This document shows, piece after piece, positions 9,455-63,969 of a stretch of 64,000 nucleotides of DNA. This DNA comes from Antedon mediterranea. Lineage: Eukaryota; Echinodermata; Crinoidea; Comatulida; Antedonidae. Where the stretch lies: contig NC_092679.1 in assembly GCF_964355755.1 (NCBI RefSeq), positions 19,210,932 to 19,274,931 of the forward strand, written 5' to 3'. Both the position numbers and the translations under genes were made by a program. The notes under the pieces were generated by a model. It was not told where the DNA came from and did not search any database. It was given only the letters and a program-made list of their open reading frames with translations. Numbering within the stretch: position 1 is the first letter of the stretch; every line of letters begins with the position of its first letter.

Positions 9455-9547
9455 TTACATAGCTGGTAGAGCAGCTGCATATTTGGGGGACTTTTTAGCA
9501 ACAACGTTACGAAGATGTGAGTCTGCCATTACATACGGGTTGATCCG
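9455..9547 (-). CDS. SCG5: 7B2 coding exon 5 (PC2-inhibitory peptide)
   Basis: Acceptor TTCTTTTAG; 30 codons and TAA at 9457-9455. Encodes INPY followed by NVVAKKSP, matching the vertebrate C-terminal peptide. The acidic vertebrate ending is replaced by an alanine-rich end (KYAAALPAM). Confidence 0.95.
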   Translation of the reverse strand, partial: RINPYVMADSHLRNVVAKKSPKYAAALPAM

Positions 9548-12500
9548 CTAAAAGAAAATAAGTGAAAACGATGTTATATAATAACACAATGATATACTTG
9601 ATGCTACAGTATTAGATTAGACTACATCACTACCCACTAGATGAAAATCCTAGGTCAAACCCGCAAAAACACACCCTAGACAACTACATTAGACCATACC
9701 CTAGACAACATTATACAACCCCTTAGACTAAACCATTAGACCACAACAATAAAGGACAATTTATTCTGAGCGGTAAAGTCCAATTTACACATACGAGCGG
9801 TAGCGGTAACGGAAAATCGCGTAGCTTGTCACACGTATAATCTGTATCTACCGGGAGCGGAAATCACCCGTCCGCTCCACGTTGTGTGTATGGTCATACG
9901 GAATATATTTATATTACTGTTACCACTCGTCTATGTAAAGTGGCATATTTTATACCACCCAATTAAATTACAGTCATTAAATTAGAGCCACTAAACCACA
10001 TCATTATACCACCCAATTAAACCACACTCTTAGACCACACTCTTAGACCACACTCTTAGACCACACTCTTAAACCACACTCTTAGACCACACTCTTAAAC
10101 CACACTCTTAGACCACACTCTTAAACCACACTCTTAGACCACACTCTTAAACCACACTCTTAGACCACACTCTTAAACCACACTCTTAGACCACACTCTT
10201 AAACCACACTCTTAGACCACACTCTTAAACCACACTCTTAAACCACACTCTTAGACCACACTCTTAAACCACACTCTTAAACCACACTCTTAAACCACAC
10301 TCTTAGACCACACTCTTAAACCACCCAATTAAACCACACTCTTAGACCACACTCTTAAACCACACTCTTAGACCACCTCTGGACAACAAAAACTAAAACA
10401 CTCTTAGACCACACTCTTATTAGACCACACCTTTTAGGTGCAATTCAGTACTACAACCACGGAGGTATACCTCCATGCTACAACTACCACTAACTACAGA
10501 ATGTGCTACTATAAATACATACCCTTTGTTTCAGTCCAATATTATTCCTGTTCCATGTGTTATATCCCTAAAGTATAGGAAACAAAGATTTCTGTGAATC
10601 AAGCGATCAGAAACTGAGCGAGAAACTTGTTAAAACGTGGCAGCAGAGACCACCTGAGATAGCGTTTGATAACATTGTAACAATCAAGAAAAGATAACAT
10701 TCTTATAAATTAATAACGTCTGTCTTACCCGTTTGTTTATGGTCATTTGTGGTGATTTCTTCGCAACCAGAGTTGAGCGTTTTAATCCATCAATATGAAA
10801 ATCACCCTACAATCACAAATAATGACCAAATTATTATACGCCTACCTCTCTTCTCCGTTGTATAATTTATTTTAATAATATTTTCTATCGCAAATTTTCT
10901 TTAAAATAAATAGGTGATATATATTGATAATAAATTTACATTGACACAATTTTAAAATGGCAGGGAAGTTGTTCTGTTAAGCTTGGTTTACACTATACGC
11001 AATGACGTAGACGTAACGCAAGCCAATGCCCTTCTAATAATTGTGTTTAGTGACTTGACCAATGACAAAGCGATTTTCAATTTTTCAATTCAATTCAATT
11101 CACATTTATTTACTCATCGTTTATAAATATAATTTCATAGCATAAATGATGGCAAAGATCCTGCATAGAGAAGTTTACACTTCTGTTTTCGCAGGACCCT
11201 TTTACATAAAAAACATAAAACAATAAACACAACATAATATATATAAAATAAAATATAGCATTTCCTATTTACATTTTAGAGTTGTTCATCATCATAAAGC
11301 GATAGTGTTTTTCTAACATGATTATTTATACATTTATTTTTCTTAAAAGAAGACGCAACACAATGACGTAGACGCAACGTAAAACGTGGTTCCCACTAAA
11401 ACGCAACGAAGCGACGTATCGACGCAAAATGATGTATTGCGTAATCACAAGTGGGAACCGACTACGCAATAGTGCTTCCAATATCGCAGGTTTGATTTCA
11501 CGCAGGCGGTGGTAAACACAATTATTAGAAGGACATTGGCTTACGTTGCGTAGATTGCGTTACGTTGCGTCACTAGTGGGAACCAGGCTTAAGCGAGTTG
11601 ACTAATGACAAAGCGACAGTCTGTTTAATCAAATCACGATAGCTTGGTTCCCACTAGAGACGCAACGCAATGACGTAGACGCAACGCAATTCGGACTATC
11701 CATTTCTTTGATTGGTCAACAAGTGGGAACCAAGCTGTCCCATTATGACGTTACGCAACCACGTAAGCGCGACGTCAGCCATTTACCCAATCACAAGCGA
11801 TGGATTGGTCAATTCGCTCTCGTCATTGCGTTAAGACTCTAGTGGGAACCAAGCATTATATTAGTGTGGAGGTGGGTTATTTTCGTGTTGAAATTAGGGT
11901 ACTATTTAATCAATAGATTAAACCTACCAAAAACCCTTCATCCATGTCGTTATCTTTCGGAACTTCTTGATATTTATTCACAAACTGAGCTGTGTTCGGC
12001 ATGTTAGGCAAACAACACTGAGATGCTATAAAAAAAATTAAGATATTAGAAATGTTAACAATTATAAATGCTTTTCATATCATATCAAAGTTAGTGTGAA
12101 CCAATAAACAAAGTGTGATGTGCTCAAATATCGTAGTGATATGCTTAAATATAGTAGTGATATGACACCATCGTGTCCATATATGGGCACATCACATTTT
12201 TGTCACATAAAGTTTGATAGTGTAGATAAATCTTTAGACACCACATTAAAGGTCGGCTTAGTGGGGTACCTTTTTCAGGTATTAGATTTTATTCTCAGAA
12301 ACAAATTTTGTTTCAACTGAATTTAATTGAACAAATGTATTCATTGATTGAATTTCCTCAAATACTGTTACCTATGTCCGTTCATAACAGATTCTTTTGT
12401 ACACCAGCATTTATGGATACAAGGTTAAGTAGCCTATGTTACTCACATTGTGTACAGTCCGAAAATTCATCATTTTCGTCCCAGGATTCGGCACAGGAAC

Positions 12501-13906
12501 ACTTAAGGTTAGGATATATAACAGATTTCACAAGAGAATACCCTGTAAAAAAAGTCATAATAAAATTCAACAACACTGTACTTAATTAACACATATCACA
12601 ATTTGGAGTTTTGTCTTGAACGCGTTTTGTCTTGAGTGCGTTTTGTCTTGAACGCAACGATTTGGTCGGATCGATTTATTCATGGGGGGGGGGGGGCGAG
12701 TGTAAAATTGTCAGCTTCTTATGGCCATTGTGGATGGGTTCGAGACTCCATATTTCTCAGTTTCTACACGATTTTCAGTGCTGTATCTCCACATAATTAC
12801 TATAATATTTGCCTAGTGTCAGAGGGATATTTGGTATTACAGCATCATTTTTATCATCACATATGGTGCCTGTATCAGGTTGGCTTAGCTTTTGTTATAT
12901 GATACTATATGAAACACCATGTGTTAGTATTATCAACTATTTTCTATGATACTGGAGAACACAGAGTGTCGAGAATACGGTGCAGTCTCTTTATTACAAG
13001 ATTTTTTAGACGTACCATTTCACCTAATTGTTACTATATGATGAAAAGAGACATTAAGCCTACAATAACAACAACCTACCTTTGGACAACTGTTGCCCTG
13101 GGCAGGGGTTGGGTGGAGTATCAAATCCGTGTATTCCTATTTCGGGAATGGCAACCTGTTTGTTGGCTAGTTTACCAAACTCTCCAATGTTTTGTTTTCC
13201 TTCGCCAGCACCTCCTATAAAAATGTAGGAAAAATACGATATAAATGTTAAAGGCAGTCCTACTTAAAACTCAGATCTGTCCACACTATCAAACTAGTCT
13301 GAAAAAAGTGTGATATGGCCAAATAATTGGTAGTGATATGGCCAAATATGGTAGTGATATACGTCATCGTCACATTTTTTTATATAAAGTTTGATAGTGT
13401 ACACCATGGAGAAATGTTTCCATGTGTAGACAGAGCTTAAGATTTAAACGAGGGACATAAAATTGGTTCACACTTGGACGCAACGCAACCTCGATATAAG
13501 CACAACGACCAACCACAAGCGACAGTTCAGACGATCGTTAAATTCTGGTAAAATTACCAGTGCGGCGCGCAAAAAACGGAAACAAAACTTAAGCACTAAA
13601 TGAGCAGCAGTTGTGTAGATTTTGACCGGTATTATAAGGCAAGTAGATTGCATATTATAGTATTAATTTGTGAAAACATTCTAGCGTACGGTCTATGAGT
13701 GGCCTACAATGTTTCAATAAAAGCGGATTCGTGATGCGGGAGAATTTTGTAAAATATCATAGCCTACCTGCGACATATGTATTTTCATCTCCTTTCAATT
13801 TGTTCTGTTCTGCAAGTTCTTCTCTCCGATTAAAATTAAAGTGATTAAAGCTCCACGGAAAGGATGTGACGTGGCAAACCAACGTTACAAATATAATTAG
13901 TCTCAT
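9455..13906 (-). CDS. SCG5: Neuroendocrine protein 7B2 / secretogranin V, complete (five coding exons)
   Basis: 7B2 is a secretory-pathway chaperone that binds pro-PC2 and, through its C-terminal peptide, inhibits PC2. Exons (minus strand) 13768-13906, 13080-13214, 11928-12025, 10729-10806 and 9455-9547 join in phases 1, 1, 0, 0 into 180 codons. Visible: signal peptide MRLIIFVTLVCHVTS; the family hallmark PPNPCP at residues 80-85; a Cys/Pro block CCLPNMPNTAQF matching the vertebrate GCLENTPDTAEF; a basic cleavage site INKRR at about 147-151; then INPY and NVVAKKSP, the PC2-inhibitory C-terminal peptide. Length is slightly below the vertebrate protein (about 210 with signal). Oddity: exon 4 carries an additional VAKKSP at 138-143. 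No single open frame reveals the gene, because all exons are short. Family identification is very strong. Confidence 0.95.
9781..9944. mobile_element. Foldback MITE, family 1, copy 1
   Basis: Inverted ends: 'atttacacatacgagcggta' on the left and 'taccactcgtctatgtaaag' on the right. Related copies are at 19301-19452 and 34262-34444. Lies in 7B2 intron 4. No coding capacity. Confidence 0.75.
10003..10437. repeat. 13-bp minisatellite in 7B2 intron 4
   Basis: Tandem 'ttagaccacactc' and 'ttaaaccacactc' units, often alternating so that a 26-bp higher period appears. About 30 units with a few 'ccacccaatt' interruptions. Degenerate 'ttagaccac' words extend upstream to about 9610. Confidence 0.85.
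10729..10806 (-). CDS. SCG5: 7B2 coding exon 4 (extra VAKKSP motif)
   Basis: A 78-nt phase-0 exon with acceptor TGATTGTAG and donor CGG|GTAAGA, 26 codons. Encodes LKRSTLVAKKSP and then INKR, which with the next exon forms the basic processing site INKRR. Phase fits exons 3 and 5 exactly, but skipping it would also keep frame, so it could be alternatively spliced. Confidence 0.8.
10980..11592. mobile_element. Foldback MITE, family 2, with a nested copy
   Basis: Left arm 10980-11049 and right arm 11517-11592 are inverted copies (shared 'acgtaacgcaagccaatg' and 'cttctaataattgtgttta' in opposite senses). The middle (11359-11480) holds another copy of the same family ('ggttcccact ... gtgggaacc'). 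Lies in 7B2 intron 3. Related to 11642-11854, 13461-13527, 25550-25675, 29814-29953 and 30032-30190. Confidence 0.75.
11642..11854. mobile_element. Foldback MITE, family 2 (tandem or nested pair)
   Basis: Begins 'gcttggttcccactagagac' and ends 'tctagtgggaaccaagc'. Internal 'gtgggaaccaagc' near 11722 suggests two elements side by side. ACGCAACGC-type subterminal words are shared with the other copies. Confidence 0.75.
11928..12025 (-). CDS. SCG5: 7B2 coding exon 3
   Basis: Acceptor TTTTTTATAG and donor GTAGGT. Encodes SQCCLPNMPNTAQF and an acidic stretch ending DEGFL, matching the segment after PPNPCP in vertebrate 7B2. Confidence 0.9.
12095..12235. mobile_element. Foldback MITE, family 3, copy 1
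   Basis: Shares 'aagtgtgatgtgc', 'tagtgatatg' and 'aagtttgatagtgtaga' with copies at 13275, 21616, 41261 and 47610. The left end is diverged. Lies in 7B2 intron 2. Confidence 0.65.
13080..13214 (-). CDS. SCG5: 7B2 coding exon 2 (PPNPCP)
   Basis: Acceptor TTTTTATAG and donor GTAGGT. Encodes IGEFGKLANKQ and DTPPNPCPG, the most conserved 7B2 motif, known to be needed for PC2 binding. Confidence 0.95.
13275..13404. mobile_element. Foldback MITE, family 3, copy 2
   Basis: Inverted ends 'tgtccacactatcaaact' and 'agtttgatagtgtaca', with internal 'tagtgatatg' words. Lies in 7B2 intron 1. Confidence 0.75.
13461..13527. mobile_element. Partial family 2 MITE
   Basis: 'attggttcacacttggacgc' followed by 'aacgcaacc' matches one end of the family 2 foldbacks; no partner arm is seen. 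Confidence 0.5.
13768..13906 (-). CDS. SCG5: 7B2 coding exon 1 (signal peptide)
   Basis: ATG at 13906-13904 lies 24 nt inside an exon whose acceptor TTACAG is at 13931-13936. It encodes a hydrophobic signal peptide followed by FPWSF. Donor GTAGGC, phase 1. Confidence 0.9.
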
Positions 13907-14624
13907 TTCGGAAATGTTGTCGAAAAAAATCTGTAAGAAAAGGGATACATTATATATGGAATAGAGTATACAAAAACATGGTACAACATATTTGGAAATG
14001 GGGAAATTCGTGGGTAAAGGACTGGAGTCTAAATGTTACTTTTAGTACAGTAGGCCTATTATCAAGGCAATCTACCAACACGAAACTGAGCCTAGGATCT
14101 CGTAACAGTCCTTTGATCTTATGTCTGGCTGCGACAAATACCAACAGTACTGTACTATGTATATATTATCTGTGGCGCGATGTATGCTATTGATAAGGAG
14201 CATGGAACTGATCGTGTCGCAGTCACAGCTAAATATATCTCCGGAACTCAGCATCCTGTTGTTAGATTTCCTTGGTTATTACTGTATTAGTAAAATAGTT
14301 CATCTGAATCTGTGTATAGCGTTAGTAGAATTTTACTAATAGGGCCTACTGTTGGTAGGCTATAGGCCTTTTTTTATTCATTTTATATAATCATTTATGG
14401 TGTTTAGATAAATCAAATTTAAACGTTAAAGTATAAATATTAAGCTGCGTTGGTATTTTCAAATATCATTTCTAGACGTGGGTGAGCAATTTAAGTCGTC
14501 ATTTTTTCTAATAAATAATTAATTTATCCATTATCTATGAAGCGTGAATTATTAATAGGATTTCCTTCAAGCCCACGTCGTACACACTGCATGCCGCGTA
14601 TGCACATAAATAGATGATGTTGTT

Positions 14625-14840
14625 TAATATTATGATGATGATAATGTCGTCAGATGATCATGATGATAATGCGAATCGATGATAATAGTGATGATGATAA
14701 TGTTGTTGATAATGATAAATATGATGATGATAAAGATGATGATGTGGTCAGATGATGATGATAATAAAGATGATGATGATGATGAAGATGATTATAATGA
14801 TAAAGATGATTTCTATAATAATGTATCAACGTTAAAACAT
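14625..14840. repeat. GAT-rich microsatellite, left arm of an inverted repeat
   Basis: Dense 'gatgat' and 'gataat' repeats. The part 14645-14690 ('aatgtcgtcagatgat' and 'gcgaatcgatgataat') recurs inverted at 15642-15700. The acidic and methionine-rich open frames here are repeat artefacts. Confidence 0.75.
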
Positions 14841-15081
14841 GAAATACAATGTAGATACTGTAGGCTTATTACTGAACGTTTCAAATAAACACTTCCACAC
14901 AATATAATAATACTGTCGAACGTTAACAGAAACACAATGATTAAAAAATACGAAATCTAATTATTATTATGATGATGATACGCTAACAATACACATAGCC
15001 TATGTCTGATACCTTTATCAAAAAGAACGATAAACGATAAAAATATAATTATGTATAAAACTATGATTCTTGGGTACATAC

Positions 15082-15135
15082 CTGTATTGTTATTGCTATA
15101 AAAGAATCTTCGTTCTACCGAATCAAGATGGCTGT
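15082..15135 (-). other. SCG5: Probable non-coding first exon of 7B2
   Basis: A donor CAG|GTATGT ends an exon at 15082 on the minus strand, 1151 bp upstream of the acceptor at 13931. The upper limit is only estimated from the promoter elements above it. Inference. Confidence 0.5.
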
Positions 15136-15159
15136 ACTAAGATGTATTCAATGAGAGGA

Positions 15160-15218
15160 GAAATGAATATACGTCAATTACTCATTTTCATATTAAGTAG
15201 TTGACGGCGATGACGTCA
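15160..15218 (-). promoter_or_regulatory. SCG5: 7B2 core promoter with perfect CRE
   Basis: A palindromic CREB site TGACGTCA lies at 15211-15218, and a TATATTC element (minus strand) near 15165-15171, both upstream of the inferred first exon and with usual spacing. CRE-driven transcription is common for neuroendocrine secretory genes; its use here is inferred. Confidence 0.55.
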
Positions 15219-16190
15219 TGACAATGCTAATGAGAAACCGTATAGTCTTCGTAGAGTGGTTGCCTAGCAACCGATGTAAATTATACGGATCGATAAATCT
15301 GCCTAGATTAAGTCTCTCCTAAAACAATTCATCCTTTTTATAAACATGTTCACGATATGTATTATAAAACAAATAACCAGAAATAGAAATATTATAAAAG
15401 TTTAAACGTATTGAATGGTATGAAATATAGTATTTAATAAAGTCACGTGAACCTCAGTCGTCCAATCAACGACTATGGAATAAGCTAGGTGTTTAGTAAG
15501 ATGATGCGTGACGGCATTATAGAATATATAATAATAATAATATAACTTGAGCCCACGCTATTAAATATAAACCTGCGCTCACATTGTATGTCAATTATTT
15601 ATATTTTTTACTAGAATGAAATGATATGATTAAAAAGATTATCATCGATTCGCATCATCATTATCATCTGACGACATATTATTATCATCATCATCTATAT
15701 AGAATCTCGGTACTGATTTTAAAAACCTGATGTAACCATGTTTACTAATTAAATTGAGTTAGATAATTATTGACAATTAAAACGAATTTAGGTTCAACGA
15801 TTTGCCCCAAATAGGGGTGTTTTTCGATCGTGGTATACACTGTCTAATGGATGTCCGTCTTGAAAAATACCCGAAGACAATAATATGAGGATGCTTCGCA
15901 TTTTCCTATCTCCTCCTACGATAATTGTTTTTAATGGCTGAAAACCGGTTGAACAGCTCAAGTACAGCATCATAATGTTGAAGACAGGCCGATTTTCTTT
16001 AAAAAAATACTATTTTGATAGATTTTATATACGTTTATATAAATGTATTGATTTGCGATGAATGGAACATTCCAATCTCTGTTACACAAGTGTCTTTTCC
16101 CTCAGGCGTCGTAAAGGCAAGTACTGTATACTCATAACAGAAATTCGATCCATTTTTTTTTTCCAATCTGTACTGCAGAGTATGGAACGC
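15219..16190. other. Intergenic, 7B2 upstream region
   Basis: No gene recognised. Contains the right arm (15642-15700) of the inverted repeat paired with 14630-14690, and AT-rich sequence. Confidence 0.5.
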
Positions 16191-16192
16191 CG

Positions 16193-16990
16193 TTTACGCA
16201 ACATTTCGATGATATGAATTTTATGACGCGATATGTGAATGAAATGCATCGATATGAATTAAAATGGTGCGATATATGAATGAAATGTTTTTAATTGAAT
16301 GCTTTGAATTGAATATTTTGAATGAAATGTTTTGAATGAAATGTTTTGAATGAAATGTTTTGAATGAAATGTTTTAAATGAAATGTTTTGAATGAAATGT
16401 TTTGAATGAAATGTTTGAATTGAATTGAAAAGTCAAACTATTGGTGGCGTATGTCATTCTCGCTCGCGATTATTTTCTCAACCTCTTAGGCCTAAGCCTG
16501 GGTACCCTCATCTCCTTTCTTCCACGCTGCCTTTACAGAGAATCCTAACAGACCTGGGTTCGGAAATATGTATTCCAATGTTTCAGGTCTGTTAGGGAGT
16601 CTCTGTAAAGGATTCATATAGATGACAGCATTGAAAGGAGATGAGGGTGGGTATACCCATGCTTAGGCCTATTAAGAGGTTGAAAAAAAATCGCGAGCGG
16701 GAATGACATACGCCGCCAATAGTTTTACTTTTCAATTCAATTCAAACATTTCATTCAAAACATTTAATTCAAAACATTTCATTCAAAACATTTCATTCAA
16801 AACATTTTATTCAAAACATTCAATTCAAAACATTTCATTCAAAACATTTCATTCAAAACATTCAATTCAAAGCATTCAATTCAAAACATTTCATTCATAT
16901 ATCACGCCATTCAATTCATATCGATGCATTTCATTCACATATCGCGTCATAAAATTCATATCATCGAAATGTTGGGTAAACGGCGTTCCA
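16193..16990. mobile_element. 798-bp foldback element with subterminal tandem repeats
   Basis: The ends are long inverted copies. Left begins 'tggaacgccgtttacgcaac' and right ends with its complement. Both arms continue inward through matching GATATGAATT and ATCGATATGAAT words, tandem 'tttgaatgaaatg' units, and a unique inner part ('gcctaagcctgggtaccctc', 'ggcgtatgtcatt'). Flanking TA dinucleotides at 16191-16192 and 16991-16992 suggest a TA target duplication. No transposase is encoded. Confidence 0.8.
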
Positions 16991-16992
16991 TA

Positions 16993-17900
16993 GCAGAGGT
17001 TGGATATAATTTTTTGTAAACGGATAATGAGCTAGCGTTTTCAGTCGCCGTTTATTATGTACAAATCTTTATTATTGCATTTAAACCACCACATCATCAC
17101 CCTTCCCTCACTGGCATGAGTAGCGTTGTAAAGCCAGTAGAGGATAAGCCTATATACGGTGCATCACATGCCCTAAACGCAGAACAACTTTGGTGGGTAG
17201 GGTAGGAACCAACTTAATTATGAATTGGCTCTAAGAAACAATTGAAAACAATTAGGCCTACTAATTAAGTTGAGTTAGACAATTTAATATTTATTGACGA
17301 TTAAATCGAATTTATGATTTTCCCCGAATAGAGGTGGTTTTCACAAATTGTTTAACATTATATATAAACATACGTCGTAGTGTATCGTTACATGTACTGT
17401 ACTATTTCAATCGACTACGACGGTGATAGTTTCAACAAAGTATTACATCGCAATGTTTTACTGTGTTTAGTGGTACATTATTTGTAAAACATGAAAACAA
17501 TTAATATTTCGTTACAAAATAAAGAATATATTTAAAATTGTTCCTCTTTGCACCCATCCTCTTCCCCATCCCTCAACCATAATGTTACATACAAAACACA
17601 AAATAAGTTTGTTTAAATCTGACTTTTAAAACAATTGGTCTCATTTTGTGACAAGTTTCTCTTTCGGAAGTAATTCCCAGGGTGCTAATTTTAGTTGAGT
17701 ACATAAATCACAGTGTCTATTTATTCGTTCCTGTAAACGACATGTATTATTGTCCTGCATTATTGTACATTTGAAATCGCCAGTTTTTTAACGCTGAAAT
17801 CATTATGTATTCGAAAACGAGCGAAGCGAGCGTACCATCTAGTAATAATAATAAACAACAATCATCATTTTTTGCATATTTGTATTGTAGGGGCCCTCAT
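16993..17900. other. Intergenic, no gene seen
   Basis: AT-rich, no credible coding frame. Ends with 'cgagcgaagcgagcg' near 17818, a word seen again near 19203. Confidence 0.5.
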
Positions 17901-17990
17901 GAGACAAGCTATTGGCCCGAGTTATTATCAAATAACTGAATAAATGAGACAAGCTATTGGCCCGAGTTATTGTCAAATAACTGAATAAAT
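17901..17990. repeat. 45-bp tandem duplication (two copies)
   Basis: 'gagacaagctattggcccga' starts at 17901 and again at 17946. The two 45-bp copies differ at one base (ttatta against ttattg). Confidence 0.9.
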
Positions 17991-19300
17991 GTGTATGAAT
18001 GAATATTGATTCATGAAAAACAGGATTCGTCGCGTGGTCACTTTGCGGGGTTTTTTTTCGTCGCGCGTCAATTAAAAAATCTCCGCTTACCTGTGTATCT
18101 TTGCCAAAATCGGCCACACCACGAGATAGGATAACGTAGATATGGAAAGGGAAATGTAGGCTAAAAATGGCAGTAAAACATTATATTTTTAGGCAATGTA
18201 TAACTATAAGTAGCAAAAAACAGGCACTTTCCATCAATCAATACAGTGTCCCTTTGGAAGACGAAAAAAAAAATCAGATATAGGCCATTAATCATAGCCA
18301 TTTCAGGTTTTTGATAGGCCATTAATCATAGCCATTTCAGTTTTTTGTTTATTTTAAAACATACCGCAGCGCGTGTGTACAGTAGTTAAATAATAGGAAT
18401 TATACTGCAAATTAATAAAGATCAAATTAAATATACGCCATAAAGAATCAGAATATATTGTGGGGAATAGTATTATAAAATCACATAGAGAGATTTGATG
18501 ATAAGACATTTTTCGCGTGAAATCCCGATAGCTGAGTTTTATTGAGTAAGCTTGCAGGAATAACTGTAGGCTATCTTCCTGTGTCCCGTTAGGACCGAGA
18601 TGTCTGCCCATGTAGCCGTACCATAATGTCTTCTTTCTTGGGCCCACCCTGTCACGGCAGTTAGTTTCAAAAGATGATTAAATTAAATAATGTATTAATA
18701 ATTATTAGGATGGTATTCATTTGAATAAACGCCTCTCTAAAAACATCACTTTGAATAATAACCCCCCACCCAACTATCTAATAAACGTCCATCCACATAT
18801 TTATAACAACACAATTATACGGTACTATTTGTAGTAGAATTCACCGCACTGTTATCTACTATTTACCAAGCATTTGTTATTCTTTTTTAGCACTTTTCAT
18901 ATCTATATTTATTATTAGAGGATTTCATTTGATTATAAATGTTACCATATTATTAAAACTACAAAATTTAACATATATCCCTCGAATAAGCACCTCCCTC
19001 AAATGACCTCCGCCTCCCCAAAGGGCCCTACCAAACAATAAAAACTGTACTTTAAAATGTCATTAATCATCTAAAACACTGTGAAACAAAGTAGTTTAGT
19101 TTTACAAATGTCAAGCATTTTCAATAATGGTAACCGACAGAAAACGTATAAGGAGAACATTATCATTCCGAGAACCATCGTCTACACTTCCTAGAGGGGG
19201 AGCGAGCGAAGCGAGCTCACCACCCTCTAGTAAGTAGCAATTGATGAAAACCGCCGCTGATATGAATAATGCTATAGAAATGTACGCTTTAGCTTAGACA
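17991..19300. other. Intergenic, with a small tandem duplication
   Basis: No gene seen. 'ataggccattaatcatagcc' occurs twice near 18281 and 18316. A second 'gagcgaagcgagc' word is at about 19201, again closely followed by 'ctctagtaa'. Confidence 0.5.
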
Positions 19301-19452
19301 ATTTACACAGACGAGCGGTAACGGTAAAACGGAAACAAAAATATAGAGTGTTATTTCTTATATTATGACCATTTACAACAACAAAAAGCGGAGCGGTTGA
19401 GTGGAATAGATAACAGATTATACGTGGGACATGCTATACGCTGTTTTCCGCC
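19301..19452. mobile_element. Foldback MITE, family 1, copy 2
   Basis: Left end 'atttacacagacgagcggta' is followed by 'acggtaaaacgg'. The right half ('tatacgtgggac ... ctgttttccg') matches 34262-34444 but the terminal end is lost. Confidence 0.7.
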
Positions 19453-20394: not shown

Positions 20395-20640
20395 AAGAGC
20401 CAACATCGGCAATGGTTCAAGGCCGCCCGCTCCTAGTTCTGGTGGTGGAACAATCTTCTCGGATAAGGACTATATGAACGGTAGGTCCAGTGTACAGTCC
20501 TGTGTGCACTTAAAAAGAACCCAGTTCGACATCATTCGAGAAGAGTGGAGTTACCCAGGTGAACTGGTTCAAAAAATAGCCCCTGTATCAAAGGGCATCA
20601 CCACCGATCTGATAGGACAGTGATTAATTTACTATTGGTA
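20395..20640 (-). repeat. Dispersed SINE-like repeat, copy 2
   Basis: The reverse complement matches 3560-3749 over 'cactggacctac', 'gtccttatccgagaaga' and 'ccaccagaac', and continues further on both sides. Confidence 0.75.
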
Positions 20641-20976: not shown

Positions 20977-21066
20977 CCAATAGCGTTGATGCCGCCAAAA
21001 CTTCTCGTGTCAGTTTTTAAAGAAGTTGATCGATCGATCAAACATAAAGGGCTGTCGTTATAAAAG
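20977..21066 (+). promoter_or_regulatory. Probable upstream promoter of gremlin (CCAAT, TATAAAAG)
   Basis: CCAAT at 20977-20981 and a consensus TATAAAAG at 21059-21066 have normal spacing. About 30 nt further on begins the inferred exon 1A. No transcript evidence is available. Confidence 0.55.
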
Positions 21067-31010: not shown

Positions 31011-31012
31011 GC

Positions 31013-54500: not shown

Positions 54501-57500
54501 CCCTTGCGTAATTATTTAATCATTGTTACAATATCTATTGATTTTCTTACAACAAACAAGTCATTTTCGTCATGATCAAGATAATCTAGAAATTAAATCC
54601 TATGTTTTGTAACCCTTTGAACCATTTAGTCCCAAAGGGATGCAACTGTATACCATGTACAAACACAAATTAAGATTTTAAATGCTTATTTTTATCAGTG
54701 GTATTTAGGTAGGTATGTCTTTGGATTTTACCGATTTCTAAAACTGCGATTCATCTCAATAATTATGATGGTTTTTCATTTAAAAACATCATTAAAAACA
54801 ACATTACATTTAATAAAATCATCAAAGTAAATGTTAATATTGTCTTACCAATTCTTGGAAATTATCCCAGAATTAATTAAAGTCATACTTAGTAAGATAA
54901 AGCACTTTATAGAAATAGTTCACTGTCCTTTGACAGTGCCTCCCATGTGGTCAAACGATGAAAGAAAAACCGAAATAGATGGCGCCTCTATTCCAAGTCT
55001 TTCAGATGACATGACAATTTAGCATTGTTTGGAGACGCGCCAACGAGGGCGGCTATCAACGGCACTTAACATTCGTCATTGTATTACTTTTTCTTTGCTT
55101 TGTACTGGCAGAGCTGTAACCAAAATATGCAGCATAAGCATGACTTTATAATATAGGTAAATTGATGCATGCTGTGTGGATGGTGAAATGGTGTTTGGTG
55201 CAATGCTGTGCTATTGAATGCGGCCATAGCCTGAAATATGAAATGTGTAAAAAACAAACAATGATTTGACATTGGTTAATAGTGTCAGACTCTGCCTTGG
55301 TAATGATTTTGAGAGGCTAATTGGGCATCTTATGTTACAGATCCTGGCAATTACCTCCTACCGTTTCAGTTAAAATTAATCATTTTGATGTAGCCAGTTA
55401 TTGTATCGTCAATTTCATTTATATTCAATTTAAAGTTATAATACTTGATAGAAAGGTAGTCTACCTTAAAATTTGAATTATTTTTTTCAAATTTTATTTT
55501 GTGAAGGTCTCTTTTGTTTTAAGGATTATTATCATATCAAATTTTTTAATTTTAAAAATAAGTTTGTCAATCAATCAATCAATCAATAATTATGCTCTTA
55601 TCATAATATTAAATGAAATTAAGAATGACAATTTATCCATATTATTATTATTATATTTATTTTAATATATTTCACAACTTACACAGTAAAACCATTCCTT
55701 TAGGCCATTCCTATTCAGGGGACATCCCATGAAGATAGGGGAAACAATGGTATGTTTTAACACTGGCAACAATTCTATTGGACTCATTTGTTTGGTCCTA
55801 TTAAGGAGTCCCTTTAATAGGTGTTATACTGTAGTTGTAGTAAATTTGTGTATAAAAAAAAAAGAAGGCTAGTCTGTCTTAAGATTTTATATAAATTTAA
55901 TAGGTCTATGATCGCGAGATCAGATCTAGACTAAGAAAGAAATCAGAATTATTACAAAATATGTACTGATCTGTTAATAATTCCTAAATCAGGAAGATCA
56001 AGGTTAAAGGTATGTATTTTGTAGATAAAAATAAATATAAAAATTATGAAAACAATCTGGTGTTTTTTTCCATTTAGTTATTTCTATAAATACATAAAAA
56101 ATATTATGCAAGATGATTTTATTTTTAAACATAAAAATAGCAAACATCATAATAAATTGATTAGTCAGAATATAAGATATGATCTGATTTTTTTTTATAA
56201 TTAGTAACAAATATCTAAATAAAAAATAGTGGCTAAGAAAAAGAGGAAATTTAAAACAGGAAGCTGTAAATAATGATTATTGTTTCATTGATTAATTTTT
56301 AGTTTTAGTTTAGATGTCATTTAATTTTATATAACACAAATGTCTCTATGCACTCGCTTTGCAAACAAGTCAAATTAACAAACACATAAAAAAGACTAAT
56401 AATAATCCACGTAACAATTGAGTTGTTGTTCCCTCTCTACAGTATATCTGAATGTAGCTCAGACAATTTTTTGTTCCCTTATCAATTATCTGAAATGTTA
56501 AAATTAACACACACACAAAAAGACTATAAGGCACGTAAAAATATGAGTTGTTTTTCCCTTCCTACATCCGAATGTAGCTCAGACAATTTTTTGTTCTCTT
56601 ACCAATTATATCTGTAACGGCAAAATTAACAGGGAAAGTCCCATATCAAAGCTATTTGTATAGAAATCATACTCGGATTTTGTGTATGTAGTAATTTACA
56701 AGAATTTGAATAAATTCAACAAGGAAACTGACACACAAAACATAACATTCACAACATTTTATTCCTCCAGTGGTTTACAAAAAAAAAACTTTCCTTCCTC
56801 CAATTTTCTTCTTTTTTAAAGTAACATCAACATTTTTTTATTATGTGGCCTTACAGATTTATATGATTAAATAAAAACGGGATGCAAAAAATAAGTAATG
56901 AGTATTGTATGTTCATCAAGTTAATCTAAGGATTATATACTGTTCTTTCTGACAAGGATACTACTATAGTAAATTATCTTTCCACCTTCCCCAATTATTG
57001 CTTTAGGGCGCTGGATACTCTAAAACCTATTATCCACTATAATCATACCCTGTCAACTCCTACTAAAGCTGCCGAAGGTGTTACTAAACTTGCACAGTGG
57101 AAGGCTTACAGACGCCCTAAGAGAAACCTACATATAAAAGCTCATAGATCACCATTTGATGATTGTGCAGCATTGACAGATGCCTCGATTTTTAAAACAT
57201 TCACTGCTCGTTAAATACTATAACTGATTTTGTTCATTGTTTTTGTTTTAGATTTTTTACATCTAAGAATATTTGAGTAATAATGCCTTTGGTCGATCAC
57301 ATTAATCAGTTTGTTTTACAAAATTAATTTGACAATACAGCAAATTTGTCATCCTTTATTTACATAAAAGCAATGAGTTACACATAACATTTAAAGTTAA
57401 GAATGTTTAATATTAGAACATATTTGAGAGATAGATGTAGGATTTTCCATCCATACTAGCTACTACTAGCACTATAGAATACATAATTTCTATGTATTAT

Positions 57501-60500
57501 CTACGAAACTAACATTTCGATCATATTTATAATAAACTTTGAAACCATCACTGCTTTTTGCTGAATTTTATTTATTTGTTTTTATGTATTTTCCTCAAAA
57601 CATAAAAAATGAAGATTAATAAAATCAGAATTTGAATAGGGCATTTTGTTGTTTTAATTAATTTAATCACTTCCAAAGTTCCATAGAAAAAAAAATAAAC
57701 AAAAAATGTTCACTTATGAAAAGTGGTTAATTTCAAACAAAAGCTGGCAGCCCATTTGACTATTTTTTTTTTGTGCTTTAAATTACAGTTTTTTCAGTTA
57801 AATCATTTTTTTCCTAATCCAATTTTTGGTCATTGAAAGTAAATAATTATTTTGTGACAATAAAATGGTATATTTAACAATAAAATTGTTTCCGTGGACA
57901 ATATATCTAAAAAGAATTCAAATTTTCCAAGCCACATGACATAATATGAATCTTTGTCATACAAAAGAAATCCATTGATATCTTTTACAATGTATTCTTA
58001 AAATATCGTTAGTTGGAAGCTATGTGAAAGAAAACTTCTATATGAATGTCCATATTACGTCTAATTTGATCGACCTTTGAACTTATTAAGTGAAAGTTAT
58101 TACCAAATAACTAATTGATTTAAAAATAGTTAATGAGGTGATTAAAACAAATTGAAGGAAGGTGATGTGAAAACAACACAAGAAAGTAGTTGATAGAGTC
58201 GCGGAGATGCCTTTGAGGGATAATAAATGCAGACAATGAGAAAAACGCGCATATTTATTAAGACGGTCGCGGACATTAAAATCTTTGTCTAACGGGAAAA
58301 CAGGAAATTATAGGATTAAGAATCTTTGATGTTGCAACTTTTTATCCGATTTCAGTGACAGGCCAAACGAAAGATATTTACGATTGGGTGTTTGTGATTA
58401 CGACGCAAAAGCCGAGGAATTGCTTGACACAACAAATATAAGTCGGTATGTCTACCAAAGAGGCTTTTAATTCCATCGGCCAAAGTCTGAAATCCCTGTG
58501 GAGACATCAAACCTTATAGGCTAGGCTTTAAGCCGCAAATAAAATGCGTCTGCAAATTAGTCCTGTTTAGACCTTATTTGGAGAGATATTACCACAGGGT
58601 GTGGATGGAATCGGGGCTAGGCTCAAGTATGTTGGTTATACAGATGGTACTATTGCAGATGGGAAGATAAGCTTCTTCGGATGAGTGTAACGACAACATG
58701 TGGCATTTCTGACCGCCATGTGTTCACAGATATCCTAGTCATTAATCTATAGTAGACAATGTCCCAGCATGATACAGATATTTCCTCATGCCTTATGTAT
58801 TAGTATCGCAAACAATAACCAGAGGCCTACGTAGTTAATCACATAGTAAAAAAACACACACAGGATAAATAAGTGTAGATTACATATCAATTATCCCTTT
58901 AGGGCTTCACATAGAGGGCGCTATTGTGCCTCTTACATAGTATCGCAACCAATAGCCAGAAGCCATACAATAATATGTAAACATGAACAGGATTATCCCC
59001 TGGTAGGCTTAACTAAGCCAGACAGGTCAGTGGGTGGAGAGCAGGATAAATTCACCCCAAAACTGGTGCTCCAAATTATGGGGTTGGGTGTGAGGCCGCC
59101 TTATCACCCTTTAAAAAGACTCGTCACAGAAAGAAACCGAAATAAAAATTCTTCTTTTTTTCCATTATTAAGATTGATTGATGATTTTAAAAAAATGTTC
59201 TAATTTCGACAAAAAAGTAATATTAAAAACAAAGCCGTAAGACAAACATGACTAAAGGTTAAAATAAGCAATAAAGTTAATGGGACATGACTGAGGAGGC
59301 AAGGCTGTCGGCCTCTGGTGTTTTCTACCTTAGATCATTACTGAAATCTTAAATTAATGTATAATTTGACAACTAATGTAAACAATCAAAAACACTATGA
59401 ATGTTTTTTAAAATTTTAGTTTATGAATATTAATCATCATGTGTTCCCGATTTTTCTCTCAAATACGATTATCAAATTCTAAACAATTGCCGCAAAATAT
59501 CACATTATTAACATTGATTGTCTGCCCACGTAATTCTACCTACTCTACAAATGAGGTGGATGCAGAAATTATTCAAATTCCAAAGACTTAACTGATTTAA
59601 ATATGAAATTGATAAAAAATAGAGCAAGATTTAGATTTACAGATAAAAAGGTCACTTGAAAAGGAATGAATGCAATGGAGTACAGTCCACTTCCCTAATA
59701 CTGGACGTCTGGTTTTTCATGAAATTCTGGTATTTCGAATGCGTTTTAATGGTTAAAAAGAATTTGGGACCTTTGGGACCCCAAAGAGAACTGATTTGCA
59801 GAGGGTCTGGTATTAAAAGAGTCGATTAACATTAAAGAATTTTAAGAAGGGTGTAAAACTGATAGAAAATACTATCATTCCAAGCACATAATTCTTTATG
59901 CTAAATGATTTCATAATGCATCAAAATGAAAAAGAGGGAGAGCTAAAATCAGTGTGGAGGAAAATTGTTTGAACAAACCTGAAGAAAGAAAAACGTCACT
60001 TTGGGAAGAATAGAACAGCCAAAGACAGAGTAGATAGAGCATTTTGTTGTAGCCAGCCGGAATGAAGAGGATAACTTAACCTAATGTATTCATATGGTAT
60101 TTTTACACTCACCTCATCAAATTTCTTTATATAGTATCTGACAATATAATGCAACAATGTTTCCTTATCCTCCTAGAAAAAAAATGATTAAAAATGTATT
60201 ATTCTTTTAATAACTTAGTACAGTTTTTTAATAAGGAACGCCCCTTGATAAGGTGAACTCTTGAAAAGAAGTCCTTCCGTAAGGTGGTCCTTTATTAGAG
60301 TATTAGAGTATTCACAGAGTGTCGTCTGTTGGGAATATGTCTCTTAAAAAGTTTAACCCTCTAAAAAGTGGTCCTTCGATATAGGAGTTTCTTTTAATCG
60401 TGGTACTTCAACAAACAACAAACAAACAAACATTGTATTGATTCGTATGTTAAATTTATTATGACAAAGATTTCCAATTGGACATAAGCCAATACAATTA

Positions 60501-63500
60501 GGTATCATGTTATTAGATTAAAACAAAAGATCTATCTATAGAGTAAAGTATAATATGATCCAACTCTTAATTTAATAATATAAAAGAAAAAAGATGTTTA
60601 AACTTTAAAAGATAAAAATAGAACAAAAGATAGTATTGTATAAAGCAGAATAATAAAGAACATGTTTAAACTAATTTTATTCAGATGAATGATATTGCAT
60701 TTTCTTTTTTGTCAGTCAGTCAAATATATTTCTACAAAATATGCTACAATTTCTGAAAATAAACCATTTTGAATTACGGTAAATCCAAGTTTCCTGAAAT
60801 TCTAAATTTTATCCTAATTAAATTAAAAGAAAAATAAGTTTTTCATTTAATAAATATATCTAGAAATGTTTACGGTTTTCAGAGTAACATATTTGACTGC
60901 AAACTATGTATTTTTTTAATTTGTTTGTCAGACTACAAAGTAATACTCATGTAGATTAATTTTTGTCAAACTTAGAGGGCGCTATATAACTTAAAATCAT
61001 GCACTAAACTAATCACTTAAATGTTGATAACATTAATTAGAGCAAGAAAGTATGCTTTTTTGTCTCTTTTTGCAGTAGAAGTGCGGAGTATTCAGTGTGT
61101 TGTATTTGTGGGGAAATTGCTTACATATCTGCTTGTATTTAAGTATTCCTATTAAATATCTTATACTTCTGTAATAACTTATAACAAAACGATAAATACT
61201 TACTGAGCTTTTAACATCTTTTAATTTTGGTAATATTTCCAAGCCAAACCCATCTGCTTGTCCTCGAGTTCTGTTACCTACAAGAAAAAAGAATTTTAAT
61301 ATAATGTTTAACAAATAAAATCAAATCTCTCTCGCTCTCAAGAACTTTTTAAAAGAATGTAATTCAATTCAATTTCTTTATTGCTGCAAATGCCATCAAG
61401 GGCTAATATCCGCATAAACATACTGCATCATACAAACATAATTATACATATTTACATTTAAAATTTAAACACATAAAAATTATAGTCATTGAAATATGCT
61501 TAGAAAGAGTAGCAGTATGTCTTCCCATGAAATTGGGTCATTTGGAAGGAGAGTTGGTCGAGTGGGTAATGAGCTCTTATACAAGTACCAAAAGGGAGAG
61601 TTGGTCTAGTGGGTAATGAGCTCCTATACAAGTACCAAAAGGGAGAGTTGGTCTAGTGGGTAATGAGCTCTTATACAAGTACCAAAAGTGAGAGTTGGTC
61701 TAGTGGGTAATGAGCTCTTATACAAGTACCAAAAGGGAGAGTTGGTCTAGTGGGTAATGAGCTCCTATACAAGTACCAAAAGGGAGAGTTGGTCTAGTGG
61801 GTAATAAGCTCTTATACAAGTACCAAAAGGGAGAGTTGGTCTAGTGGGTAATAAGCTCTTATACAAGTACCAAAAGTGAGAGTTGGTCTAGTGGGTAATA
61901 AGCTCTTATACAAGTACCAAAAGGGAGAGTTGGTCTAGTGGGTAATAAGCTCTTATACAAGTACCAAAAGGGAGAGTTGGTCTAGTGGGTAATGAGCTCT
62001 TATACAAGTACCAAAAGTGAGAGTTGGTCTAGTGGGTAATGAGCTCTTATACAAGTACCAAAAGGGAGAGTTGGTCTAGTGGGTAATGAGCTCCTATACA
62101 AGTACCAAAAGTGAGAGTTGGTCTAGTGGGTAATGAGCTCTTATACAAGTACCAAAAGGGAGAGTTGGTCTAGTGGGTAATGAGCTCCTATACAAGTACC
62201 AAAAGGGAGAGTTGGTCTAGTGGGTAATAAGCTCTTATACAAGTACCAAAAGGGAGAGTTGGTCTAGTGGGTAATGAGCTCTTATACAAGTACCAAAAGT
62301 GAGAGTTGGTCTAGTGGGTAATGAGCTCTTATACAAGTACCAAAAGGGAGAGTTGGTCTAGTGGGTAATGAGCTCCTATACAAGTACCAAAAGGGAGAGT
62401 TGGTCTAGTGGGTAATAAGCTCTTATACAAGTACCAAAAGGGAGAGTTGGTCTAGTGGGTAATGAGCTCTTATACAAGTACCAAAAGGGAGAGTTGGTCT
62501 AGTGGGTAATGAGCTCCTATACAAGTACCAAAAGGGAGAGTTGGTCTAGTGGGTAATGAGCTCCTATACAAGTACCAAAAGGGAGAGTTGGTCTAGTGGG
62601 TAATGAGCTCTTATACAAGTACCAAAAGGGAGAGTTGGTCTAGTGGGTAATGAGCTCCTATACAAGTACCAAAAGGGAGAGTTGGTCTAGTGGGTAATGA
62701 GCTCTTATACAAGTACCAAAAGGGAGAGTTGGTCTAGTGGGTAATGAGCTCTTATACAAGTACCAAAAGTGAGAGTTGGTCTAGTGGGTAATAAGCTCTT
62801 ATACAAGTACCAAAAGTGAGAGTTGGTCTAGTGGGTAATGAGCTCTTATACAAGTACCAAAAGGGAGAGTTGGTCTAGTGGGTAATGAGCTCTTATACAA
62901 GTACCAAAAGGGAGAGTTGGTCTAGTGGGTAATGAGCTCTTATACAAGTACCAAAAGGGAGAGTTGGTCTAGTGGGTAATGAGCTCTTATACAAGTACCA
63001 AAAGGGAGAGTTGGTCTAGTGGGTAATGAGCTCTTATACAAGTACCAAAAGGGAGAGTTGGTCTAGTGGGTAATGAGCTCCTATACAAGTACCAAAAGTG
63101 AGAGTTGGTCTAGTGGGTAATGAGCTCCTATACAAGTACCAAAAGTGAGAGTTGGTCTAGTGGGTAATGAGCTCCTATACAAGTACCAAAAGGGAGAGTT
63201 GGTCTAGTGGGTAATGAGCTCTTATATAAGTACCAAAAGGGCGAGTTGGTCTAGTGGGTAATGAGCTCTTATACAAGTACCAAAAGGGAGAGTTGGTCTA
63301 GTGGGTAATGAGCTCTTATACAAGTACCAAAAGTGAGAGTTGGTCTAGTGGGTAATGAGCTCTTATACAAGTACCAAAAGGGAGAGTTGGTCTAGTGGGT
63401 AATGAGCTCTTATACAAGTACCAAAAGGGAGAGTTGGTCTAGTGGGTAATGAGCTCTTATACAAGTACCAAAAGGGAGAGTTGGTCTAGTGGGTAATGAG

Positions 63501-63969
63501 CTCTTATACAAGTACCAAAAGGGAGAGTTGGTCTAGTGGGTAATGAGCTCTTATATAAGTACCAAAAGGGCGAGTTGGTCTAGTGGGTAATGAGCTCTTA
63601 TACAAGTACCAAAAGGGAGAGTTGGTCTAGTGGGTAATGAGCTCCTATACAAGTACCAAAAGGGAGAGTTGGTCTAGTGGGTAATGAGCTCTTATACAAG
63701 TACCAAAAGTGAGAGTTGGTCTAGTGGGTAATGAGCTCTTATACAAGTACCAAAAGGGAGAGTTGGTCTAGTGGGTAATGAGCTCTTATACAAGTACCAA
63801 AAGTGACAAAATAATTGAGTCATTTGGAAGGAGAGTTGTTCTAGTGGGTAATGAGCTCTTATACAAGTACCAAAAGTGACAAAATAATTAGTGTACCTCC
63901 GTTCATGTAGTTTCCAAAGGTCAATATAATTCCACAAATTGTTTCAACTTCTGGACTATGTAAAAGCAT
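39497..63969 (-). CDS. Formin of the FMN/Cappuccino subfamily, last eight coding exons
   Basis: Formins nucleate and elongate unbranched actin filaments through FH2. Minus-strand exons 63897-63969, 61204-61277, 60113-60172, 51070-51190, 48049-48193, 43445-43594, 42904-42991 and 39497-39538 join in consistent phases (1, 0, 0, 1, 2, 2, 0) to give 250 residues of the C-terminus. Motifs in order: [21 protein letters not shown], split by a splice site; [37 protein letters not shown] then [35 protein letters not shown]; and a basic tail with [16 protein letters not shown]. The GNxMN..N.RGxA.GF block is the FH2 signature. The LP(I/L)PEP block and the short basic tail mark FMN1/FMN2/Cappuccino, whose tail binds the Spire KIND domain. 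FH1, the FH2 start and the N-terminus lie beyond 64000. Confidence 0.95.
40225..40725. repeat. Tandem MITE-end repeats ('gtgtgaacagggcttaagga')
   Basis: About five degenerate copies of 'gaacagggcttaaggataa', each followed by 'aaaataaccctctatagc' or similar, at roughly 40240, 40310, 40445, 40635 and 40700. The end word matches the MITE at 27952-28101. In the last formin intron. Confidence 0.7.
41261..41424. mobile_element. Foldback MITE, family 3, copy 4
   Basis: Ends 'agctctgtctacactatcaa' and 'aagtttgaaagtttagacaa'. Internal 'agtagtgatatgcc' and 'atgggcacatccc'. Confidence 0.8.
41440..41525 (-). mobile_element. tRNA-derived SINE head
   Basis: On the minus strand an A-box-like TAGCTTGGTGG is followed about 36 bp on by a B-box-like GGTTCAATCCTG flanked by the T-stem pair CAGG/CCTG. 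The anticodon arm is not well formed, so this is a SINE or tRNA relic rather than a functional tRNA. Confidence 0.6.
42345..42660. repeat. Dispersed 'gtgtccccttaatagaggtg' repeat cluster
   Basis: Several degenerate 'tgtcccctTAATAGaggTgtc' and 'ggttggcagtagtattaa' words. Related copies occur near 5415, 49740, 50285, 51900, 53020, 55715 and 60235, mostly in formin introns. Confidence 0.7.
42904..42991 (-). CDS. Formin exon: basic helix before the tail
   Basis: Acceptor GTTTTTACAG, donor TTG|GTGAGT. Encodes [16 protein letters not shown] and [11 protein letters not shown], a Lys-rich continuation of the FH2 C-terminal helix leading into the Spire-interaction tail. Confidence 0.9.
43125..43440. 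repeat. 156-bp tandem duplication next to a formin exon
   Basis: 'atcatgctgattttacggat' occurs at 43222 and 43378, with 'ctacattcagcttacatact' before each and 'ttacatgaag' after. The second copy abuts the donor of the exon at 43445; the first copy has no exon. Confidence 0.85.
43445..43594 (-). CDS. Formin exon: [11 protein letters not shown]
   Basis: Acceptor TTAATTTAATAG, donor GTAAGC, 49 full codons. Encodes [20 protein letters not shown] and [12 protein letters not shown], the end of the FMN-type FH2. Intron sequence next to this exon is duplicated at 43125-43270. Confidence 0.92.
43800..43950. repeat. 75-bp tandem duplication (two copies)
   Basis: 'aaggtgatcatctttactta' starts at 43808 and 43883. 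The copies appear identical through 'attaacatatcaaaca'. Confidence 0.9.
44430..45300. repeat. 16-bp minisatellite (CTGGATGTGCTACCCC) in a formin intron
   Basis: About 50 tandem 16-bp units; main variants are GTGCTAC against GTCCTAC and CCCC against CCTT. Edges are degenerate. Since 16 is not a multiple of three and the unit lacks stops, all three plus-strand frames stay open for about 200 codons with a 16-residue period ([16 protein letters not shown]). These are not genes. Lies in the intron 43595-48048. Confidence 0.95.
45301..46280. other. Formin intron, no further feature
   Basis: AT-rich intron sequence without a recognised element. Confidence 0.4.
46285..46390 (-). mobile_element. tRNA-derived SINE head, second type
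   Basis: On the minus strand A-box TGGTCTAGAGG sits in a D-arm GGCG...CGCC, followed by a CCAGG/TCTGG stem with loop CTTGTGA, and a B-box-like TGTTCGAGCAC. The T stem does not pair well. A further GGCTCGAATC lies just upstream. Best read as a tRNA-derived repeat. Confidence 0.55.
46391..47609. other. Formin intron, no further feature
   Basis: AT-rich; short frames without family signal. Confidence 0.4.
47610..47720. mobile_element. Foldback MITE, family 3, copy 5 (short)
   Basis: Ends 'agctctttctacactatcaa' and 'aaactagtttgatagta'. Lies 330 bp from the formin exon at 48049. Confidence 0.75.
48049..48193 (-). CDS. Formin exon: [13 protein letters not shown]
   Basis: Acceptor TTATTTGTCAG, donor GTAAGT. 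Encodes [20 protein letters not shown] and a helical segment, matching the FMN EEHLQPFK region. Confidence 0.92.
48260..48570 (-). repeat. Dispersed repeat with (AAT)n and 'atatagcgcctaatgg'
   Basis: (AAT)n at 48302-48327 is followed by 'atttatatagcgcctaatgg' and 'ctctaggtgctttacat'. The minus strand reads 'cctccgccagaataacgaga' and 'cccgattttcataagacttt', words that look like a common invertebrate interspersed repeat. A fragment of the tail is at 5697-5742. Confidence 0.6.
48571..50384. other. Formin intron, repeats only
   Basis: AT-rich with 'ttgattgattatta' runs near 49390-49480 and 49600, and fragments of the 'tgtccc...taatagg' family at 49670-49800 and 50280-50345. No exon seen. Confidence 0.45.
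50385..50505 (-). repeat. Dispersed SINE-like repeat, copy 3
   Basis: The minus strand reads 'gggtgaccctaaacagcgta', 'tgctgacaatcaagg' and 'ctcgtctcgaaagatgtact', matching the 5' part of the copy at 3516. Confidence 0.75.
51070..51190 (-). CDS. Formin exon: LPIPEP and VKFEDV
   Basis: Acceptor TTTGTTTCAG, donor GTGATT (non-consensus at +4 to +6 but in phase). Encodes [14 protein letters not shown] and [19 protein letters not shown], diagnostic of the FMN subfamily. Confidence 0.93.
51191..56929. other. Largest formin intron, first part
   Basis: AT-rich intron (8.9 kb in all). Fragments of the 'gacacccctattaaggagac' family at 53020-53120 and 55715-55825. Several short open frames (52621, 53363, 54831, 56423) have no supporting motif. 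Confidence 0.45.
56423..56620. repeat. Direct duplication 'gaatgtagctcagacaattt'
   Basis: 'gaatgtagctcagacaattt' plus 'tttgttc.cttatcaatta' occurs at about 56450 and 56570, 120 bp apart, with shared flanks. Confidence 0.8.
56930..57214 (+). pseudogene. Unassigned protein-like open frame in a formin intron
   Basis: A 94-codon stop-to-stop frame without a good ATG. It reads [54 protein letters not shown] and ends FKTFTAR at TAA 57212. Composition is protein-like and less AT-rich than its flanks. An acceptor-like TTATTGCTTTAG ends at 57006, so it could instead be a terminal exon from 57007. Candidates are a decayed transposon tail or a nested gene exon. Family not recognised. Confidence 0.3.
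57215..60112. other. Largest formin intron, second part
   Basis: AT-rich to 58190. Then a less AT-rich, non-repetitive block at 58190-58640. A 140-bp-spaced direct repeat ('tagtatcgcaaacaataacc' and 'tagtatcgcaaccaatagcc') lies near 58802 and 58940. No exon recognised. Confidence 0.45.
58190..58640. promoter_or_regulatory. Candidate cis-regulatory block in a formin intron
   Basis: Composition shift, no repeats, and a cluster of common factor-binding words: GATAA, ACAATG (Sox-like), CTTTGATG (TCF/LEF-like), ACAGGAAAT (ETS-like), GGATTA (Otx-like), TGACAGG (Meis/TGIF-like). Such words are short and occur by chance, so this is a weak inference motivated by the gremlin-formin linkage. Confidence 0.25.
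60113..60172 (-). CDS. Formin exon: 20 codons ([10 protein letters not shown])
   Basis: Acceptor TTTTTTTCTAG, donor GAG|GTGAGT, phase 0 at both ends. Encodes [19 protein letters not shown], the FH2 helix after LKDVKS. Confidence 0.93.
60235..60400. repeat. Fragment of the dispersed 'cttaataag/gtcctt' repeat family
   Basis: Degenerate 'ccccttgataaggtgaac', 'aagtggtccttcgatatagg' words, like those at 42345 and 53020. Confidence 0.5.
61204..61277 (-). CDS. Formin exon: FH2 signature ([10 protein letters not shown])
   Basis: Acceptor TTTTCTTGTAG, donor GTAAGT. Completes [18 protein letters not shown], the most conserved FH2 block. Confidence 0.96.
61525..63888. repeat. 47-bp satellite array with a tRNA-type A-box, in a formin intron
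   Basis: Forty-eight consecutive units of exactly 47 bp run from 61551 to about 63806 (first and last starts are 2209 bp apart, 47 x 47). The unit contains 'gagagttggtctagtgggta', 'atgagctcttatacaagtac' and 'caaaag'. Only base substitutions are seen: g/a in aat(g/a)agctc, t/c in ctc(t/c)tat, g/t in aaaag(g/t)gag. A further unit at 63833 is separated by a 26-bp insert 'tgacaaaataattgagtcat' plus 'ttggaa', and the sequence before the first unit shares 'tcatttggaaggagagttgg'. The ancestral unit may thus have been 73 bp. TGGTCTAGTGG in each unit fits the Pol III A-box; no B-box is present. Confidence 0.95.
63897..63969 (-). CDS. Formin exon: FH2 core (FGNYMNG)
   Basis: Acceptor TTTATTTGTAG, donor GTACAC, 24 codons plus one base. 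Encodes [10 protein letters not shown] and FGNYMNG. The ATG at its start is an internal Met. Confidence 0.93.

Follow-up and report, generated by a model that had tools for sequence, protein, structure and literature searches.

At the limb deformity locus, a limb-patterning locus of vertebrates, mutations in the formin region act through gremlin, and the odd genetics are owed to two joined genes. Linkage of Grem1 and Fmn1 is described for every vertebrate analysed. In mouse, the limb control region of Grem1 occupies the interval from coding exon 19 to coding exon 23 of Fmn1 (mouse numbering), and distances in the 3' part of Fmn1 are lengthened alongside the presence of conserved elements (PMC3541112). 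The genes given as adjoining human GREM1 are SCG5 and FMN1 (PMC4788144), and in mammals FMN2 is located on the 5' side of GREM2 (PMC5274524). Beyond vertebrates, a limited synteny of Grem, FMN, DAAM and Lgmn was reported across limpet, amphioxus and human; the four genes were assigned to chordate linkage group 11 (CLG11), and shared cis-regulation was proposed as a possible reason for the Grem synteny (Roch & Sherwood 2014, PMC4079206). Here we analyse a stretch of 64,000 nucleotides from Antedon mediterranea (the window; C10:19,210,932-19,274,931, in a genome of 354.43 Mb in 18 contigs), in which a minus-strand 7B2 (SCG5) gene, a plus-strand gremlin gene and a minus-strand FMN-class formin are consecutive. 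This trio is a fresh instance of a known ancient linkage, with a modest extension (7B2, the muscarinic receptor CHRM and the RyR gene RYR).

The identities, order, orientation and coordinates of the three genes had been proposed in an original prediction made from the window, and exon joins, Pfam and PDB searches confirm them; clade placement is by comparison of scores rather than by trees. The gremlin gene (26745-27305, plus strand) consists of a single coding exon of 186 amino acids (aa) with a DAN domain (PF03045, 125.7 bits). The nearest solved chains in PDB are GREM1 (163 bits) and GREM2 (150 bits), followed by NBL1 (58 bits) and sclerostin (17.8 bits), so that on PDB scores GREM is the closest group, ahead of NBL1 and sclerostin. 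Genome-wide, seven DAN-domain matches were found, and gremlin tops them with 126.8 bits (43.9 for the runner-up). A 3' splice-like site is present upstream of the ATG, and a 5' non-coding exon is therefore likely. Elsewhere in the genome, three tandem DAN-domain matches are found within 15 kb at C1:39,230,305-39,244,807.

The formin is represented in the window by its 3' part (39497-63969, minus strand), with eight coding exons at 63897-63969, 61204-61277, 60113-60172, 51070-51190, 48049-48193, 43445-43594, 42904-42991 and 39497-39538. Five further FH1/FH2 exons lie past the window and reach 67447 (extended coordinates, i.e. window numbering carried past the window end), and all 13 exons join in phase with no internal stop. 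The FH2 domain is full (281.9 bits, profile positions 2-372 of 372). For FH1, polyproline is visible and Drf_FH1 scores 27.7 bits against a cut-off of 40. Alignment to human FMN1 gives 384 bits (49% identity over 414 aa), and the PDB matches are DAAM1 (116 bits), Dia1 (99), FMNL3 (82) and INF2 (77), next to a 5051-aa chain that bears the label 'Formin 1' (77 bits). Among formin classes, FMN thus appears to be the nearest to this gene, with a score gap that is indicative, as it comes from different programs. One of the eight other FH2 loci in the genome has been given a class (DAAM), so there may be a second FMN-class gene. The C-terminal tail is basic; a PDB search for the Spir-interaction motif (FSI) returned no match with a meaningful E-value. 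The N-terminal exon of the formin is probably an open frame of 757 codons (extended 78339-80609), with its ATG 16.6 kb past the window, and the gene probably extends 16.6 kb beyond the window. Consequently, the exons originally predicted at 39497-63969 cover only the 3' part of the gene. An open stretch in the N-terminal region (extended ~76.7-77.0 kb) is DEP-like at 17.7 bits (cut-off 32.7), a domain that would be unexpected for FMN formins.

The 7B2 gene (9455-13906, minus strand) has five coding exons with GT/AG borders (13768-13906, 13080-13214, 11928-12025, 10729-10806 and 9455-9547), which together encode, in phase and uninterrupted by stops, a protein of 180 residues. The protein matches Pfam PF05281 (Secretogranin_V) with 31.4 bits, above the cut-off of 25. 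This match is confined to profile positions 69-141 of 232, and positions 1-68 (the N-terminal third) find no match in the assembled protein, which reflects either diverged sequence or an overlooked exon. No extra exon was found within 13220-13765, a weak negative since the finder also missed exon 4, which was spotted by eye. Judged by eye, the N-terminus is signal-like. The motifs expected of 7B2 are present (the proline-rich segment PPNPCP, the following cysteine and a basic KRR cleavage site), with the C-terminal peptide INPY...NVVAKKSP standing behind the KRR site. Identity to human SCG5 is 32% over 133 aa (E 1e-14, with three subject sequences only), and a search against PDB gave no match. 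All five matches of the 7B2 protein in the genome are these exons, i.e. a single locus was found; a PF05281 profile search of the whole genome came back empty, which is probably due to the small size of the exons. The protein holds two VAKKSP motifs: LVAKKSPQM before KRR (exon 4, 10729-10806) and NVVAKKSPKY in the C-terminal peptide (exon 5, 9455-9547). Human 7B2 has a single motif of this type, located in the PC2-inhibiting peptide, and the double motif could be a duplication of the inhibitory element.

Between the three genes lie a head-to-head interval of 12.8 kb (7B2 to gremlin, 13907-26744) and a tail-to-tail interval of 12.2 kb (gremlin to formin, 27306-39496). In both we scanned every open reading frame (ORF) from 80 aa upwards, except for any containing 7B2 exon 1 or overlapping gremlin. 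All 16 ORFs in each interval fall below the Pfam cut-off (0 of 32 above it), although genes with small exons could escape such a scan, and no Rfam families or tRNAs were found between the three genes. The proposal that no other supported gene separates them therefore holds. Sub-cut-off Pfam matches in these ORFs (Pox_I3, Ig_F54D1_6_2, Defensin_3, Mei5, ZFYVE21_C, Catalase-rel, ORF45 and MtN3_slv) were taken as chance.

The block is embedded in a wider linkage on chromosome C10 (25.04 Mb of the 354.43 Mb, 7.1% of the genome). A DAAM formin is located on C10 at 12.05 Mb, 7.2 Mb from the block (best PDB match DAAM1, 204 bits). Of eight legumain matches, six lie on C10 at 17.11-17.15 Mb, and the best one is among them (17.11 Mb, 2.1 Mb off). 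The CLG11-type linkage is thus found here, with gremlin and FMN sharing a chromosome with DAAM and LGMN. The best of 163 muscarinic receptor matches (60% identity, with 149 of 627 candidates scored) is at 20.41 Mb on C10, 1.1 Mb from the block, and all four RyR matches form a single locus at 20.75-20.77 Mb, at 1.5 Mb. Hence all four linkage partners examined are on C10, with a chance of ~7% each under random placement. The muscarinic query also matched clusters of rhodopsin-type receptors at C3:31.55-31.65 Mb (~30-40% identity) and C3:4.81-4.89 Mb (26-32%).

Over 19.22-20.77 Mb the order on C10 is gremlin-FMN-muscarinic receptor-RyR. The human orders are RYR2-CHRM3-FMN2-GREM2 at 1q43 and SCG5-GREM1-FMN1-RYR3-CHRM5 at 15q13-14; the C10 order mirrors the former and fits the latter in outline. 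Gremlin and formin are tail to tail here, as in the human arrangement, in line with the proposed conservation of their orientation. With single RyR and 7B2 loci found and a gremlin far above the other DAN-domain matches, the genome appears not to have undergone the vertebrate duplications. Other genome-wide searches found exact let-7 once (Rfam confirms let-7) and no match for an exact bantam 16-mer (its reversed control matched once). No FMRFamide array was found, the four scattered matches of the FMRF-GK pattern being equal to the four of its reversed control, and COX1 had no match in the assembly. The let-7 is the mark of a bilaterian, and the lack of the bantam 16-mer and of an FMRFamide array speaks weakly against a typical protostome (annelid, mollusc or arthropod).

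That the linkage is older than the vertebrate duplications, as originally proposed, agrees with the C10 linkage group and with the limpet and amphioxus synteny of Grem and FMN, and it is this published linkage that carries the protostome-deuterostome span of the pair (PMC4079206). The gremlin-formin part is accordingly not new, having been reported in 2014. SCG5 as a third member does appear to be so: the main text of that report names SCG5 zero times, and no report of an invertebrate SCG5-gremlin-formin block was found in the literature searched (titles and starts of abstracts, with most subscription papers outside its range). Taking the literature together with the human gene orders, we infer the ancestry of the block and regard its gremlin-formin pair as the unduplicated, ancestor-like state of the human 15q and 1q pairs.

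The reading that we favour, by a little over even chances, is that the block is a remnant of an ancestral bilaterian chromosome in which the 3' introns of the formin, together with intergenic DNA, carry part of the regulatory landscape of gremlin. Gremlin would be a developmental BMP antagonist under distal control and the tail-to-tail formin a bystander housing part of that landscape; we propose that breaks between the two genes would therefore be selected against, with 7B2 on the other side as a looser passenger. Intron lengths are compatible with such a reading, the introns on the gremlin side being long, as in tetrapods, where this region controls Grem1. In this formin the FH2 part extends over 23.5 kb, or 63 bp for each profile position; the figure for the eight other formin loci is 9-31 (their spans are approximate, being taken from partial matches). 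Seven introns on the gremlin side have lengths of 0.45-8.9 kb, those of the next five upstream being 0.24-0.97 kb, and the former are longer in 33 of 35 comparisons (one-sided p 0.005, with the split picked after inspection). By size, the largest intron (51191-60112, minus strand, 8.9 kb) is a candidate regulatory landscape: it holds no tandem arrays and three stretches of dispersed repeat, together at least ~0.9 kb (40 of 5568 candidates scored).

A number of observations weigh against this interpretation. Tandem arrays make up 86% of one formin intron (a 47-bp unit repeated 48 times at 61548-63803, 97% match) and 23% of another; the idea that all formin intron length is regulatory was rejected, since the arrays account for part of it. 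A stretch of ~9.3 kb without modelled exon is also found upstream of the FH1 exon, so long stretches also occur away from gremlin. No enrichment of GLI-like sites is seen (8 against 5.96 expected, with 27 of 100 shuffles reaching 8). Nor are the wider linkages exclusive, given that two of the eight legumain matches fall on C4 and weaker muscarinic-type matches occur at C10:0.56 Mb and C9:4.08 Mb. As originally proposed, 7B2 appears inverted relative to human SCG5, and its promoter geometry with gremlin is therefore not conserved. Published data on topologically associating domains (TADs) are in conflict: Hi-C of mouse fibroblasts leaves Scg5 out of the Grem1 TAD (PMC8455560), whereas a TAD in three human cell lines takes in part of SCG5, with little evidence that the associated GREM1/FMN1 region contacts the SCG5 or FMN1 promoters (PMC4788144). 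The coupling of SCG5 and GREM1 is thus inconsistent. Overall, a regulatory constraint on the block is something we infer indirectly, and regulatory interlocking of gremlin and formin is a plausible hypothesis. A sharper proposal is tentative and less likely than not: the dependence of gremlin on enhancers within the 3' introns of the formin would predate vertebrates and limbs, such enhancers would already be present here (39.5-63.9 kb), and 7B2 would form the other edge of the block.

Two arrays within the formin introns may be described in their own right. The 47-bp unit contains TGGTCTAGTGG, which resembles a tRNA A box, and the unit is perhaps derived from a short interspersed element. A 16-bp unit repeated 53 times (44435-45287) is open in three plus-strand frames.

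The strongest competitor, with a sizeable probability that stays short of even, is passive retention, in which few local rearrangements on C10 have kept the genes together without regulatory coupling. That C10 keeps a set of linkage partners argues for a chromosome that is conservative in general, and SCG5, for which published data offer no firm regulatory tie, has been retained as well. Yet the other partners lie 1.1-7.2 Mb from the block and the trio is consecutive, an adjacency estimated at ~3 in a million for random placement (assuming 1,400 genes on C10). Considerably less probable is that gremlin and formin alone are constrained and that 7B2 came to adjoin them through a separate chance or lineage-specific event. 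The inversion of 7B2 relative to human would suit such an event, and the limpet and amphioxus text names FMN, DAAM and LGMN, not SCG5 (PMC4079206); convergence is unlikely, however, as SCG5 and FMN1 both adjoin GREM1 in human (PMC4788144) and the trio is consecutive here. A chance cluster was rejected in view of the C10 partners and the match to the human 1q43 order, which also make an assembly join unlikely. An artefact, be it an assembly join (named in the original prediction as a way in which it could fail) or a paralogue, is hardly credible and was rejected as well: the window is without any N, the genes are intact and in frame, and their linkage is seen independently in vertebrates and limpet and fits the partners across C10.

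Outside the block, the neighbours are a flavin-containing monooxygenase (FMO)-like gene and CDAN1 on the 7B2 side, next a SIVA-like ORF and vasohibin, and RAB3GAP2 past the formin. The FMO-like gene (2734-5211, plus strand) matches PF00743 with 100 bits on 4375-5208 and continues into upstream ORFs; its exon borders are approximate and the upstream exons were recognised by eye. The SIVA-like ORF is named tentatively and has no Pfam match. In human, CDAN1, vasohibin and RAB3GAP2 are located on 15q, 14q/1q and 1q, respectively, and the immediate human neighbours of the block differ from those found here. Between FMO and 7B2, nested large tandem arrays with units of 104-421 bp occupy 5845-8545.

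Should the arrangement, and perhaps a regulatory overlap with it, be older than vertebrates, the limb landscape would have been added to a neighbourhood that already existed. An invertebrate whose gremlin and formin form an unduplicated pair is a clean place to test for such an overlap before vertebrates, and the gremlin-FMN-CHRM-RYR order offers a ready reference for the duplicated 15q and 1q regions.

Compared with the known systems, the Antedon block shares with the vertebrate Grem1-Fmn1 (limb deformity) locus and Scg5 the three consecutive genes, the tail-to-tail position of gremlin and formin and the long 3' introns of the formin. Unlike the vertebrate locus it is unduplicated and compact, with the 7B2 end and the FH1 exon ~58 kb apart. 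Counterparts of the vertebrate limb deformity enhancers are hypothetical here, and no limbs are implied. Microsynteny of this kind has reportedly been described as genomic regulatory blocks with bystander genes by Irimia et al. in 2012; the likeness is that a developmental gene adjoins one whose introns are large, whereas conserved non-coding elements and contacts are hypothetical here. The closest match outside vertebrates is the Grem-FMN-DAAM-LGMN synteny of limpet and amphioxus (PMC4079206): the same four genes are found here on a single chromosome, gremlin and FMN are immediate neighbours here, and 7B2, the muscarinic receptor and RyR join the set.

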